From NCBI RefSeq assembly GCF_024220515.1, contig NZ_JAMXOT010000009.1, positions 1-46,932 on the forward strand: a DNA stretch of 46,932 nucleotides. Reading direction: 5' to 3'. Shown in pieces: positions 1 through 39,364 of this stretch (the stretch's first letter is position 1; every line of letters starts with the position of its first letter). The stretch is from Oscillatoria sp. HE19RPO. Its GTDB lineage: Bacteria > Cyanobacteriota > Cyanobacteriia > Cyanobacteriales > Laspinemataceae. The notes under the pieces were generated by a model. That model worked only from the letters and a program-made list of their open reading frames with translations. It ran no database searches and had not been told where the DNA came from. A program made the position numbers and the translations under genes.

Positions 1-170
1 ACTGAAGTCGTTACTACGAACATGAGAAGAGAACGACTGAAGTCGTTACTACGAACATGAGAAGAGAACGACTGAAGTCGTTACTACGAACATGAGAAGA
101 GAACGACTGAAGTCGTTACTACGAACATGAGAAGAGAACGCCTGAAGGCGTTACTACGAACTCAGAAAGA
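1..170. repeat. Tandem 35-bp palindromic repeat array
   Basis: Four contiguous 35-bp units occupy 1-140 with no sequence differences that I can see, and a diverged fifth begins at 141. There are no unique spacers, so this is not a CRISPR array. Each unit junction makes the palindrome AACGACTGAAGTCGTT (7-bp arms, 2-nt centre) at 32-47, 67-82 and 102-117. The fourth palindrome, 137-152, is AACGCCTGAAGGCGTT: both arms changed in a matching way, so pairing is kept. The array lies just downstream of the ABC exporter gene. The same core recurs at 4396-4522 and 6971-7031. Confidence 0.9.
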
Positions 171-4394: not shown

Positions 4395-4395
4395 T

Positions 4396-4522
4396 GTTCT
4401 CCAAGTTTGTAGTAACAACTTCAGTCGTTCTCCAAGTTTGTAGTAACAACTTCAGTCGTTCTCCAAGTTTGTAGTAACGACTTGCTGTCGTTCTCCGGTG
4501 TTCATAATCACAACTTCAGTCC
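4396..4522. repeat. Second array of the AACGACTTCAGTCGTT repeat
   Basis: Four head-to-tail copies of a roughly 31-bp unit begin at 4396, 4427, 4458 and 4490, with the last diverged. The unit contains GTTCTCC, then TTTGTAGTAAC, then the palindrome half-sites, and is in reverse orientation to the array at 1-170. Copies 1 and 2 read AACAACTTCAGTCGTT, which would keep pairing as a G-U pair in one transcript direction. Copy 3 has an altered loop with arms AACGAC/GTCGTT. The array fills the gap between two convergent genes. Confidence 0.85.
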
Positions 4523-4534
4523 GGGTTTTCGTCC

Positions 4535-4578
4535 GTGGGAGCATCTTCATTCCTATACAGGGAGTAAAATGCTCCCAC
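4535..4578. repeat. Stem-loop GTGGGAGCAT/ATGCTCCCAC
   Basis: A perfect 10-bp inverted repeat (4535-4544 and 4569-4578) encloses a 24-nt loop, between the lipoprotein and serpin genes that converge here. There is no T-tract, so it is not a classical terminator. It is more likely another mobile palindrome, though it could stop transcription from either side. Confidence 0.6.
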
Positions 4579-4633
4579 TCCTGAAGTTGATGAGCAGAAC
4601 CCTTGAAAATTGCTCCCTCTAAACTTTAAAAAT

Positions 4634-5947
4634 TCACAGCATCGGATTAACCAAGGTCCCCATAAACAGCAAAGTGCCAGTAGTATCATCCCGAATTGCG
4701 AAAAAGAAAGGGCGATCGATAATCATTTCCACTGGCCCACTGCGAGTACCCAGTATTCCGGTTACTGCTGATGCTTCCGTCCCTTCTTCATTCACCTCCA
4801 AAAATGTTTTATGCTTAATTTTACTAATCCAAAAAGGTTCAGGAGTAATTGAGCTAAAATCTGCCTGAGAGCTAAAAGCTATCCCCATATTCATCGCGGT
4901 TAGAATACTTTTTAATTCAATATCATATTCTATCTTAAACCGTGGCAGTCCCAATCTGACTGGTTTGTTTTCCCAATATTCTTTAAGCCATAAATTCCAG
5001 TTTTCAGAATTCAATTGCTCTAAAAATAAATCTAAACCCACTTCAGGATTAGGCAGGAAAATATATAAATTTACTTCAGCGGTATTGCCATAAGGCAAAG
5101 CAATCGCCTGAAACAAGGCATTTTCATAGTAAGCAAACTCTTGGGTTTGAAACATCAGGGGATGCGGTTTACTCTGTCCATTGGCTAAGGCAAATGGATG
5201 CTCACGAGTGTCCGATTCAGAAAATGGACTCAACCAGGCCGATTTAAAGTAAATAGCATTCACCAACAGAGAAATCGTGCCGCTATCCAAATCATTAGGC
5301 TCTAAAATATGGTCTATTCTCTGACGAGTTTCTTCCGCTACCCAGCCATTAATGACGGGTGCAGCAGTAGCGGGGCTACTAAAATCAATTTCCCGAGTTT
5401 GGGCTTGATAATGGGTTTCGTTCCTTTGAATAAAATTAGAATTAAAAGAGCCACCTTGTTTTATCCAGAAAGAATTGGCAATAGCTATTTCTACTTCTGA
5501 ATCCATTTCTTGCAGGTGAGTATGGAGTGCGGATATGATAGAATCAATTTGCTCTTGTTCCATCCCTGGAGTTTCCAAAACCGAGGCGATCGCCTCGTGA
5601 GTTGCGCCCGTTGCCCCACCATTAAGCATTTGCAAAGCCAGAGTTAAACTCAAGGGAGAAATAAAAATATTATTGGCCTTTTCTTGTTGATAAATTCGAG
5701 AAAATAATTTAATACCAAAGCGAGTATTGGCCGCAATAATGGGTTTAGTCGTCACCGAATTTTCTAGGGTTTTATTCAAAGTTATCCATAATGGCCCGAT
5801 GGGTCGATGATCGCTCATTTTGATAGCAGGAATCAGGGCATAAGGGGGTTCGGAACCCTCCAATGTTGCCATCCAACCCAGGGTTGCGATCGCCACTGCA
5901 CCTAGTAAAGCGATCGGTCTTACCGCATTCATAAAATCTTTTTTCAT
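4634..5947 (-). CDS. Serpin-family protease inhibitor, exported or membrane-anchored
   Basis: This is a 437-residue protein with a complete serpin core. An N-terminal hydrophobic segment (about 10-27) suggests export or anchoring to the envelope. Serpin landmarks are NIFISPLSLTLALQMLNGGA, LVNAIYFKSAW and the C-terminal DRPFFFAI. The reactive-centre hinge EEGTEASAVTG (387-397) has the small residues needed for loop insertion, as in inhibitory serpins. Counting back from the conserved Pro-Phe places the scissile bond near Arg402-Ser403, which would fit a trypsin-like protease; counting from the hinge shifts it by one. Inhibitory serpins trap serine or cysteine proteases covalently. The target is unknown and no protease gene is nearby. 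The start is ATG at 5947; a second ATG lies five codons downstream. Confidence 0.93.
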   Translation of the reverse strand: MKKDFMNAVRPIALLGAVAIATLGWMATLEGSEPPYALIPAIKMSDHRPIGPLWITLNKTLENSVTTKPIIAANTRFGIKLFSRIYQQEKANNIFISPLSLTLALQMLNGGATGATHEAIASVLETPGMEQEQIDSIISALHTHLQEMDSEVEIAIANSFWIKQGGSFNSNFIQRNETHYQAQTREIDFSSPATAAPVINGWVAEETRQRIDHILEPNDLDSGTISLLVNAIYFKSAWLSPFSESDTREHPFALANGQSKPHPLMFQTQEFAYYENALFQAIALPYGNTAEVNLYIFLPNPEVGLDLFLEQLNSENWNLWLKEYWENKPVRLGLPRFKIEYDIELKSILTAMNMGIAFSSQADFSSITPEPFWISKIKHKTFLEVNEEGTEASAVTGILGTRSGPVEMIIDRPFFFAIRDDTTGTLLFMGTLVNPML

Positions 5948-6045
5948 ACCAGTCCATTACATTCTATTTATCTTCAAGGCAGAACCTTGTAGACAGCACC
6001 CTGAGCAATTTTAATTCTGGGATATTATGGGGGTGTAAAACCGCT

Positions 6046-6897
6046 TTATCCCCTCTGTTTATCCTGATGTTCCTGCAACGTAATAATCGTCACTTCTGGG
6101 GGACAAAATAGCCGTCCCGGGAAATAAGTTCCCAATCCCCGACTCACATAAAGTTGATTGTTTCCCACCTGATGCAACCCTTGAGACCACTCCCATCGCT
6201 CCACAATTTTATAACTGTTTTTGGATAAATAAGGAATCCATTGCCTCAACCATTTAGGAACTTTTTCACGAAAGCATTTGAAATAAGCTGGAAGGGGTCC
6301 AATTTGGGGTAAAATAATTTGTCCCCCATGAGTATGACCGGATAGCTGTAAATCAACCCGAAGTGTTTGCAAATAAGTTGCCGTATCGGGATTATGGGAG
6401 AGAACAATTCGCGGAATTGATGCCTCAATGCCGGGAAAAACTGCCTGAGCATTAAATTGACCCGACTGCACCTCTGCCATCCCCACGACGGCTAAACCTG
6501 ACCCCAAAGGATAGACTACTTCGTTCCAGAGAATAGGAATTCCAATCTTCTCGAAGGCTGCAATAATGGTTGACTTAGAATGAGGCACCTTAATATCATG
6601 GTTGCCTAAAATACCATAGATACCCCGGCGACTTTGGAGATGCTTGAGTTGCAATGCCAAAGCATAAATGCAGTCAGGATTCTGGGTTACATAGTCACCA
6701 GTCAGCAGGACCAAATCGGGGTCAGCTTGATTGGACACTGCGATCGCCTCCGCCAAGAGTTTATCTGACAATCCCTCCTTTTCATAATGAAAATCGGATA
6801 ACTGGACTAATTTTGTCCCAATCAGATCCGTGGGTAAATCGGCGATCGCCACGTTTAACCGTTCAATTTTTAACGATCCGGTCAAAAACCCGTGCAT
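6046..6897 (-). CDS. Calcineurin-like metallophosphoesterase (YkuE-like)
   Basis: This predicted two-metal phosphoesterase of about 283 residues has all the expected metal-binding blocks: D35 and H37 in LSDFHYE, D68 in LTGDY, N99/H100/D101 in LGNHD, H168 in LSHNPD, and H188/H190 in SGHTHGG. The family resembles YkuE-type enzymes, some of which act on lipid or cell-wall phosphoesters; the substrate here is unknown. I placed the start at the ATG at 6897, preceded by GAGGATAATTACAGGT, instead of a TTG 14 codons upstream. It stands alone, about 100 bp from the serpin gene on the same strand, with a palindromic repeat upstream of it. Confidence 0.9.
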   Translation of the reverse strand: MHGFLTGSLKIERLNVAIADLPTDLIGTKLVQLSDFHYEKEGLSDKLLAEAIAVSNQADPDLVLLTGDYVTQNPDCIYALALQLKHLQSRRGIYGILGNHDIKVPHSKSTIIAAFEKIGIPILWNEVVYPLGSGLAVVGMAEVQSGQFNAQAVFPGIEASIPRIVLSHNPDTATYLQTLRVDLQLSGHTHGGQIILPQIGPLPAYFKCFREKVPKWLRQWIPYLSKNSYKIVERWEWSQGLHQVGNNQLYVSRGLGTYFPGRLFCPPEVTIITLQEHQDKQRG

Positions 6898-6970
6898 ACC
6901 TGTAATTATCCTCGTGGACAGATAATCCCAGCATAACAAACTTTCTCAAATCAACCCTCAAAGATATTCT

Positions 6971-7031
6971 TTGTAGTTTGTAGTAACGACTTCAGTCGTT
7001 ATCCCCGCTTCGGTGTCACAACTGAAGTCCT
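6971..7031. repeat. Third locus of the AACGACTTCAGTCGTT repeat
   Basis: A single copy with the perfect palindrome AACGACTTCAGTCGTT at 6985-7000, preceded by TTTGTAGT as in the second array. A degenerate half-copy (ACAACTGAAGTCC) sits at about 7019-7031. It lies between the metallophosphoesterase and the glutathione transferase, both on the minus strand. Confidence 0.85.
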
Positions 7032-38368: not shown

Positions 38369-39364
38369 ATGAATGTCGAAGAATTATTGCGACGCTATAC
38401 AGCCGGAGAAACTAATTTTAACGGAGCCAGTCTCTGGGGAGCAAACCTTCGAGGGGCGGATTTGATTGGAGCGAAATTACGGGGAGCGGACCTCCACGGA
38501 GCGGACCTGATTTTTGCCTACTTGAGCCGAGTCAACTTGAGTGCCGCCTACTTAGTCAGTACCAAACTCAGTGGTGCCAACCTCAATCAAGCCAATCTCT
38601 CCGGTGCAAATCTCAGCGATGCGGACCTACATGGGGCGACCCTCCAAGGTGCCGATCTTCGCAAAGCGAACCTCAATTTAGCCAATCTCCTGGATGCGAA
38701 CCTCAGCGATGCAGATTTGCGCGGAACCACCTTGAGCGGGGTTTGTTTACGCGGAGCCTGTTTGCGCGGGGCCAATTTCCGGGAGGAACGGCGGATCTAC
38801 AGTGCGGCGAACTTGCGGGGTGCGGATTTACGCGGAGCCGATTTGCGCGGAGTCAACCTTAGCGGTGCGGACTTGACGAAGGCGGATTTAAGTGGGGCAA
38901 ATCTGACCGAAACGAACTTGCGCGGGGCGAATTTGGAACGGGCAAAAATGGCCTCAGCGATTGTCAACGGAGGGTTTTTGAGCGATGCCAATCTGTCCTA
39001 TGTGGATTTGAGCGGGGCTTGTATGACAAATGTCAAGCTGGAACGATCTCAGTTGGGCGAGGCGAATTTGGAGGGAGCTAAACTGGATATGGCCATCATC
39101 ACCGATGCCAAACTGGGGAAAGTCAACCTATCCGGGGCGAATTTAACCCGGGCGAATCTGTCCCGGACGGATTTAAGTCGAGCGAATCTGTCTCATGCGC
39201 TCTTGAACGAGGCGAATCTATGTGAGGCATATTTGGCCCGAACGAATTTAATGCGGTCCAATTTGACTAAAGCGAGCTTAATCCGAGCAGAAATGAGCGG
39301 CGCTAATACGGCTGGGGCGATATTTAGCCAGACGACGATGCCGAATGGGGATGTGCAGAATTAA
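38369..39364 (+). CDS. Pentapeptide-repeat protein
   Basis: This protein of about 331 residues consists almost wholly of A(D/N)LxG pentapeptides, for example ANLRGADLIGAKLRGADLHG, which form a right-handed quadrilateral beta-helix. After a short N-terminal helix (VEELLRRYTAGETNF) the coil runs to near the C-terminus, with one break, NFREERRIYSAANL, at about residue 134. Cyanobacteria carry many such proteins and most have no known role; some in other bacteria mimic DNA and bind gyrase. No extra domain is visible. The ATG at 38369 is 8 nt from GAGGGA and is preferred over the ATG two codons upstream. The gene may be co-transcribed with the acidic-protein gene. Confidence 0.92.
   Translation: MNVEELLRRYTAGETNFNGASLWGANLRGADLIGAKLRGADLHGADLIFAYLSRVNLSAAYLVSTKLSGANLNQANLSGANLSDADLHGATLQGADLRKANLNLANLLDANLSDADLRGTTLSGVCLRGACLRGANFREERRIYSAANLRGADLRGADLRGVNLSGADLTKADLSGANLTETNLRGANLERAKMASAIVNGGFLSDANLSYVDLSGACMTNVKLERSQLGEANLEGAKLDMAIITDAKLGKVNLSGANLTRANLSRTDLSRANLSHALLNEANLCEAYLARTNLMRSNLTKASLIRAEMSGANTAGAIFSQTTMPNGDVQN

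Follow-up and report, generated by a model that had tools for sequence, protein, structure and literature searches.

GTAG-type REP hairpins with two discrete heads, and their probable RAYT partner, in the cyanobacterial genus Laspinema

A short palindrome recurs at three intergenic sites in one stretch of cyanobacterial DNA, and the question it raises is what kind of repeat this is and by what means it came to be copied. The stretch, here termed the window, is the 46,932 nucleotides of contig NZ_JAMXOT010000009.1 of Oscillatoria sp. HE19RPO (G000:C102:1-46932, contig 102 of the 511 that make up a draft genome of 7.67 Mb; G000 is the window's own genome, one of eight from Laspinema considered below). 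A first-pass annotation, made from the letters of the window, had suggested repetitive extragenic palindromic (REP) elements moved in trans by a transposase and then amplified in tandem, and this was right in substance. The favored reading, given a probability of about 0.87, is that the repeats are GTAG-type REP elements, in which a GTAG tag is followed by a 6-7 bp hairpin, and that they are non-autonomous partners of one REP-associated tyrosine transposase (RAYT; HUH/Y1 type) encoded elsewhere in the Laspinema genome. Transposition itself, and the cutting or moving of repeats by the RAYT, we infer by analogy.

Chance origin of the copies is ruled out. When up to 3 mismatches are allowed, the 21-bp core is matched at seven places in the window (32-52, 67-87, 102-122 and 137-157 on the - strand; 4409-4429, 4440-4460 and 6980-7000 on the + strand) and not once in 100 dinucleotide-preserving shuffles, which bears out the initial description of three sites. 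Genome-wide, at the same tolerance, there are 1,395 matches in the 7.67 Mb (750 forward, 645 reverse), with 0 for a reversed-pattern control, so the recurrence elsewhere for which the first-pass annotation proposed a search is present, as is a placement mainly outside coding sequence. The latter was assessed in 583 kb holding 137 core copies and made up of two sets of stretches, a first (363 kb, 98 copies) picked partly for holding matches or transposases, and a second, unbiased one (every 20th contig from C120 to C500, 220 kb, 39 copies, matching the expectation from the genome total). Inside open reading frame (ORF) models of at least 80 amino acids (aa), which cover 81% of bases, lie 29 of the 137 copies; with the window added, 36 of 144 are in any ORF of at least 80 aa and none is in an ORF longer than 178 aa. 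The copies being mostly extragenic, the notion of a coding repeat was rejected.

Clusters with at least two cores within 200 bp number 30 of 36 in the 583-kb sample, and among 101 neighboring core pairs within that distance 81 are direct and 20 inverted, 54 of the 81 direct pairs from both sets being spaced 31-37 bp. Conserved palindromes with differing unit lengths and varying spacers had been proposed from the window, where the unit lengths of the three arrays are 35, 31-33 and ~32 bp, and across the genome spacer sequence is likewise array-specific. Among 20 arrays of at least three units, identical spacers are found in 30 of 126 comparisons within arrays vs 2 of 2,359 between arrays, in support of tandem amplification. 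A CRISPR (clustered regularly interspaced short palindromic repeats) array was considered and rejected, since the gaps are ~10-15 bp in most of the 20 arrays and those of one array often have the same sequence (cas genes were not searched for).

Unit anatomy was read from 148 places in the 583 kb plus the window that match the 12-base body with at most 1 mismatch. The layout is GTTY, then a 7-base head, either GTAGTAA or AACGTC[CA], then the hairpin CGAC-TTCA-GTCG-TT. With a tolerance of 2 mismatches to GTAGTAA for membership of the GTAG type, 115 bodies carry that head, 23 the AACGTC[CA] type and 10 some other; no intermediate between the two heads is present among the 148, on which ground the AACGTC head as a decayed GTAG head was rejected. 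Each base of the GTAG tag is kept in 109-115 of the 115 GTAG-type copies, and CGTC in 23/23 of the AACGTC type. Outer GTT, 12-base body and TT end are common to both classes, which differ by a seven-base block, the base after the outer GTT being C or T before GTAG and always C before AACGTC. Folded as DNA, the GTAG form gives -5.0 kcal/mol (2 of 200 shuffles were equally good) and the AACGTC forms -2.1 and -3.2 kcal/mol. About one copy in thirteen has the AACGTC head in the whole genome (110 matches to a 24-mer vs 1,359 to the GTAG 21-mer, each with up to 2 mismatches); its share is 3/39 in the unbiased set and 20/98 in the other.

A RAYT gene flanked by the same core, for which a search had been proposed, is found outside the window, on another contig (G000:C104:6899-7492; 198-aa product), as one of six Y1-transposase genes in this genome. 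To its 5′ side are seven GTAG-type units, six of them perfect, and to its 3′ side six AACGTC-headed units, the two groups facing each other in inverted orientation (L034/L037 and L038). The nearest 3′-side unit encodes the last residues and stop codon of the RAYT (L034:1273-1293), and in G170 the stop is likewise inside a unit. The protein scores 94.9 bits against NCBIfam NF047646, REP-associated tyrosine transposase (cut-off 80), and 27.3 against Pfam Y1_Tnp (cut-off 23). Its best solved relative by sequence is 4er8, TnpA-REP (E 4.8e-8), and 4er8, which shows a RAYT in complex with a REP hairpin, is also the top structural match to a model (mean predicted local distance difference test, pLDDT, 84.8) of the 95% identical ortholog from Laspinema palackyanum, strain D2a of which is the nearest named relative found. 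The HUH residues N84-H85-Y86-H87 and Y145 are invariant in 23 aligned sequences, and Y145 aligns with the YIYINP motif of 4er8; by comparison with work on E. coli it is the candidate catalytic tyrosine. This gene most likely specifies the enzyme that copies the repeats. Four of the other Y1-transposase genes (L031, L033, L035, L036) sit among repeats of different palindromes (GCCCGC..GCGGGC, AGAAACCCGGTTTCT, GTAGGGGCGATTCGAGAATCGCC, GTAGGGGCGTATTGCATACGCCC), and at the fifth, L032, none such was seen; several distinct RAYT/REP-like pairs thus seem to coexist in this genome.

Does repeat number go with the gene? Cores with up to 2 mismatches were counted in all eight Laspinema genomes: 1,359 in G000, 1,134 in G195, 1,083 in G170 and 809 in G130; 231 in G194, 194 in G113, 102 in G079 and 79 in G143. 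An ortholog of the RAYT is present in G000, G170 and G130 (in the last, close to the end of a contig, with a changed C-terminus), and a search found none in G195, G194, G113, G079 or G143. With G195 left aside, gene-bearing genomes thus have 809-1,359 cores vs 79-231 in the four gene-less ones (rank test P 0.029, G195 left out and kinship uncorrected). At the RAYT locus of G079 and G194 the two neighbor genes adjoin, and what lies between them is REP units or remnants without a RAYT; the neighbors are separated in G113, where one side has remnants, and in G143, where both sides do. Since all four gene-less loci retain REP units or remnants, and since the low-copy genomes are ungrouped in a four-gene tree (4,158 columns, supports 0.73-1.0; G170 plus G130 next to G143 plus G079, and G195 next to G113), the RAYT locus is read as old and the gene as probably lost more than once. 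High copy number as the mark of one clade is rejected by the same tree, a small one. A link between RAYT loss and REP decay, reported for pseudomonads and stenotrophomonads in the accessible text of Nunvar et al. 2013 (PMC3686654), here appears in cyanobacteria.

Related enzymes in other genomes extend the association. RAYT matches with an E value of at most 1e-10 were found in 49 of 194 genomes of the order, and the core (up to 2 mismatches) in 41 of the 194 and in 0 of 6 genomes from other genera of the same family. Besides G000, G170 and G130, 26 genomes of the order sample have whole or partial RAYT relatives of 55-70% identity, and matches reach Chloroflexi, Poribacteria and others. Loci were taken from the genome collection for the best 80 of 151 RAYT matches. 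After the dropping of 5 with less than 200 bp on one side, 75 were tested under one rule with 500-bp flanks: GTAG- or GTTG-tagged hairpins are within 500 bp of the gene at 61, on both sides at 50, compared with 11 of 133 windows 2-2.5 kb away at the same loci and 3 of 75 shuffled flanks. A frame in which pairing was not demanded, GTAGT-N6-TTYA-N6, gave 196 distinct copies from 58 of the 80 loci, with stem pairs 2-6 paired in 176, 190, 189, 185 and 185 of them (90-97%), many of compensated types, and 24-30% paired in a slid-partner control. The stems of the relatives differ within the same frame, and the pattern, at the level of sequence, is one of hairpins changing while staying paired, beside related enzymes. 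At one locus from a Terriglobia metagenome-assembled genome (L138) a RAYT 48% identical is flanked by hairpins with the AACGAC/GTCGTT stem of Laspinema, either by convergence or by transfer.

Within the window, site A consists of tandem GTAG-type REP units on the - strand at 1..161 (Tandem Repeats Finder: 1-161, period 35, 4.6 copies, 98% matches), namely 1-21, 32-56, 67-91, 102-126 and 137-161, the last with a compensated stem, CGCC/GGCG. The first is cut by the contig edge, so the left side of the array is unseen. Arrays probably explain where such draft assemblies break: the window begins inside one, G195:C331 and C4 end in or beside arrays, and cores lie within the first ~300 bases of 8 contigs, among the 100 places listed. 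Site B, on the + strand, had been described as an array of ~31-bp units at 4396-4522. The array and the period of 31 hold (Tandem Repeats Finder: 4396-4496, 3.2 copies, 95% matches), refined by a third unit with a 5-base loop and a degenerate fourth. Unit 1 (4405..4429) is of GTAG type with one stem mismatch, CAAC/GTCG, unit 2 (4436..4460) has the same sequence, unit 3 (4467..4492) is of GTAG type with the loop TTGCT, and unit 4 (4500..4521) has an ambiguous head, ATAATCA; the best two have 1 mismatch to the core. At site C, also on the + strand, a single copy plus half-copy had been reported at 6971-7031. The single copy stands, as a perfect GTAG-type REP (6976..7000; the orthologous unit in G113 has an AACGTCC head). 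An inverted half-copy was set aside, alignment fitting better with a decayed direct second unit at 7008..7029 (AACGTCA head, flipped loop, 5 mismatches) that starts ~32 bp after the first, by which site C, too, looks like a short tandem array.

All three sites are between ORFs: A downstream of an ATP-binding cassette (ABC) transporter ORF (176-2098, -), B flanked by a 206-aa ORF that has no Pfam match and a serpin gene convergent with it, and C between a metallophosphoesterase gene and a glutathione S-transferase (GST) gene on the same strand. In G195 and G113 the gap of site B (window 4395-4633) has a second serpin-like gene, ~48% identical to the window serpin (L194, L196). Elsewhere in the window, 15-base periodic repeats at 38411-39244 lie within an ORF, which we take to resemble pentapeptide-repeat proteins.

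Placement of this kind could also be expected if the hairpins were mainly host RNA elements at transcript ends, terminators or 3′-end stabilizers, amplified by selection. The copies are mostly intergenic, sites A and B are downstream of genes, and divergent gaps are absent among copy-bearing gaps in the sample (0 of 19, vs 73 of 338 gaps; P 0.0085), a pattern that agrees with REPs reported in other genomes; REPs of E. coli stabilize RNA 3′ ends, according to the accessible part of one report (PMC13289151). However, an Rfam scan of the window gave no family at the gathering threshold, the bases 3′ of the hairpin are mixed pyrimidines with no U-run, and the 5′ tag, the long arrays and the RAYT partner would be superfluous for such a role, all of which makes it improbable.

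A different challenge is that the repeats are purely local, spread within arrays by slippage and gene conversion, with the RAYT domesticated or idle and dispersal ancient. Spacers that the units of one array have in common but different arrays do not, unit numbers in relatives that range from one to at least seven at a given place, cores at some level in all eight genus members and the lack of any clean empty site seen would all suit it. Array growth by slippage, indeed, requires no transposase, and that is one of several points that weigh against the partnership of repeats and RAYT. A clean empty REP site was looked for at the window's three sites in seven relatives and not found: all seven carry some unit form or fragment at sites B and C, and G113 has a fragment at site A. 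Since no insertion could be matched to a clean empty site, mobility is a property that we infer. Just 7 informative genomes entered the comparison of RAYT status. G195 has 1,134 cores yet no RAYT ortholog match, though both of its contigs end inside genes beside the RAYT locus and it is 87% complete, so its RAYT may sit in an assembly gap. Spacing of 31-37 bp is seen in just 9 of 23 direct pairs of the unbiased set, and site B units, with their stem mismatch, fold poorly (-1.4 kcal/mol). Among the related loci, a tagged hairpin was not found in the 500-bp flanks of 14 of 75, and the outermost stem pair (pair 1) is paired in just 118 of 196 copies (60%). Set against a purely local origin, nonetheless, are the tracking of RAYT presence by copy number across the tree (G195 aside) and the decayed units retained by gene-less genomes, and on balance such an origin is judged rather unlikely.

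With REP elements partnered by the RAYT as the preferred reading, the course of events may be pictured as follows. The RAYT would bind the hairpin in single-stranded DNA, read the head as a guide and cut beside the hairpin, thereby seeding new single copies between genes. From each founder copy a tandem array would then develop, lengthening and shortening through slippage or recombination and taking the founder's flank as its spacer, and conversion would exchange heads between units; where the RAYT gene was lost, copies would no longer be renewed and would decay. Unit number at the window's own sites does vary between species, as tandem amplification would have it. At site B the 5′ flank TTCTCCATG precedes a single unit in G194 and G143 and, as TTCTCCAAG, recurs as the gap in the G000 array, a result that slippage between short repeats next to a founder could produce.

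The second head has its own distribution. AACGTC-headed copies number 110 in G000, 88 in G170, 87 in G130, 44 in G195, 25 in G194, 24 in G113, 20 in G143 and 14 in G079; the four high-copy genomes are thus ahead of the rest, if not in proportion (G195). Among 194 genomes of the order, a variable-stem pattern with this head is matched in the 6 that are Laspinema (control 0) and in none of the 188 non-Laspinema genomes. As only 1 of 80 RAYT loci, again from Laspinema, has the head, its being a general cyanobacterial feature is not borne out. Some AACGTC-headed matches have compensated stems, CGCC/GGCG and CCCC/GGGG, from which the AACGTC form, too, seems kept as a hairpin. Units of this head with a CCCC/GGGG stem amount to a further subtype (G143, G130, G170, and L186 in the window's own genome).

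Mixed arrays are common in G130, with 16 AACGTC-GTAG and 11 GTAG-AACGTC neighbors, and rare in G000 (3 and 1 of 74); stretches from G130 and half of those from G113 were picked at AACGTC matches, so tag ratios in them are not genome ratios. Differently headed units share one gap sequence (e.g. L175, L253, L259). At site C the head is AACGTCC in G113 vs GTAG-type in G000, G079, G143 and G194, and the second unit of G113 is that of G000; G170 has one AACGTC unit there, G195 four GTAG units and G130 both kinds. A head swap that leaves body and gap as they were is consistent with gene conversion from one unit to another. The unit farthest out on the 3′ side of the RAYT locus fits the AACGTC form in G000, G170 and G130 and, in a decayed state, in G079, G113 and G143, but does not in G194; G170 and G130 have GTAG units beside the AACGTC unit on that side. 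The 5′ side is GTAG-type in G000, G170, G130 and G194 and decayed in G079 and G143, and in G113 no GTAG-type unit was seen on it.

Could the AACGTC-headed units be a separate, unrelated repeat that shares the hairpin by chance? Discrete heads without intermediates (115/23/10) and the CCCC/GGGG and CGCC/GGCG stems would be compatible with that, but the 12-base body, outer GTTC and TT end are identical, both heads occur within one array with the same spacer, and at site C of G113 the head differs in place next to a second unit as in G000. Already disfavored, the suggestion is very unlikely. What is new here, as far as sequence comparison goes, is one hairpin body with two discrete heads that are mixed in arrays, exchanged at an orthologous site and both found beside the RAYT. 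No report of two heads on one REP body was found in the literature searched, which was mostly without subscription papers, and in the accessible part of a 2025 survey (PMC12306157) CGTC occurs solely in a reference title.

A more speculative extension, on the doubtful side, is that the one Laspinema RAYT might work with two guide heads, both kinds of unit being its substrates, so that exchange of the 7-base head would retarget a REP. REP/RAYT pairs are related to IS200/IS605 elements, and their use to the cell is unsettled. In IS200/IS605 elements each of the two ends, left and right, has a guide of its own, a model for GTAG units on the 5′ side of the RAYT and the AACGTC form on its outer 3′ side.

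Other short intergenic tandem arrays in filamentous cyanobacteria are the long and short tandemly repeated repetitive sequences (LTRR/STRR), which are not known to carry a GTAG tag or to have a RAYT partner. Nearer are the cyanobacterial GTAG-12, -15 and -16 REPs (Di Nocera et al. 2013, PMC3733652), described in the accessible part of that paper as having GTAG beside a short small-loop stem, mostly intergenic placement, high copy number, compensating stem variants and a RAYT flanked by the same repeat; the second head is the difference here, in a comparison made by description. By NHYH, YIHYNP, length and a proline-rich N-terminus (FPPHAPPHP), the RAYT fits the cyanobacterial subclass 2.8 of Quentin et al. 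2018 (PMC6006769), with a listed length of 199. As far as the available text goes, that subclass has 8 members listed, cyanobacterial in the authors' sample and with relatives noted in other phyla, and is flanked by REPs with 5′ GT[AG]G; the difference is that relatives here are in 26 further genomes of the order plus Chloroflexi, Poribacteria and others.

CGTC-tagged REPs, in the parts of the 2013 paper available (PMC3733652), also have CGTC before a short hairpin. However, their stem is 8-9 bp and their tail CCA-like, whereas the AACGTC units have a 4-5 bp stem and the tail TT, which places them outside that class; and while none of the RAYT genes in the CGTC-carrying species described there is flanked by CGTC units, that of Laspinema is flanked by AACGTC units. 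As in REPINs (REP doublets forming hairpins) and BIMEs (bacterial interspersed mosaic elements), so far as described in accessible text (PMC3116915; Nunvar 2010, PMC2817692), inverted core pairs occur, e.g. + then -, mostly 103-140 bp apart in the unbiased set, but here they are just 20 of 101 near pairs. Pairs of + then - cores ~100-140 bp apart often enclose GC-rich palindromes (L001, L008, L012, L027, L029; in L008, GTGACTTGGC..GCCAAGTCAC), giving compound elements of ~160 bp.

Laspinema amounts to a natural experiment, in that close species have or lack the RAYT and their copy numbers differ 3.5- to 17-fold. The occurrence of two heads on a single hairpin is relevant to an issue raised by the 2013 work, namely whether RAYTs can move CGTC-tagged repeats, and if one RAYT does use both heads as guides, the CGTC tag, so far without a transposase, would gain its enzyme.

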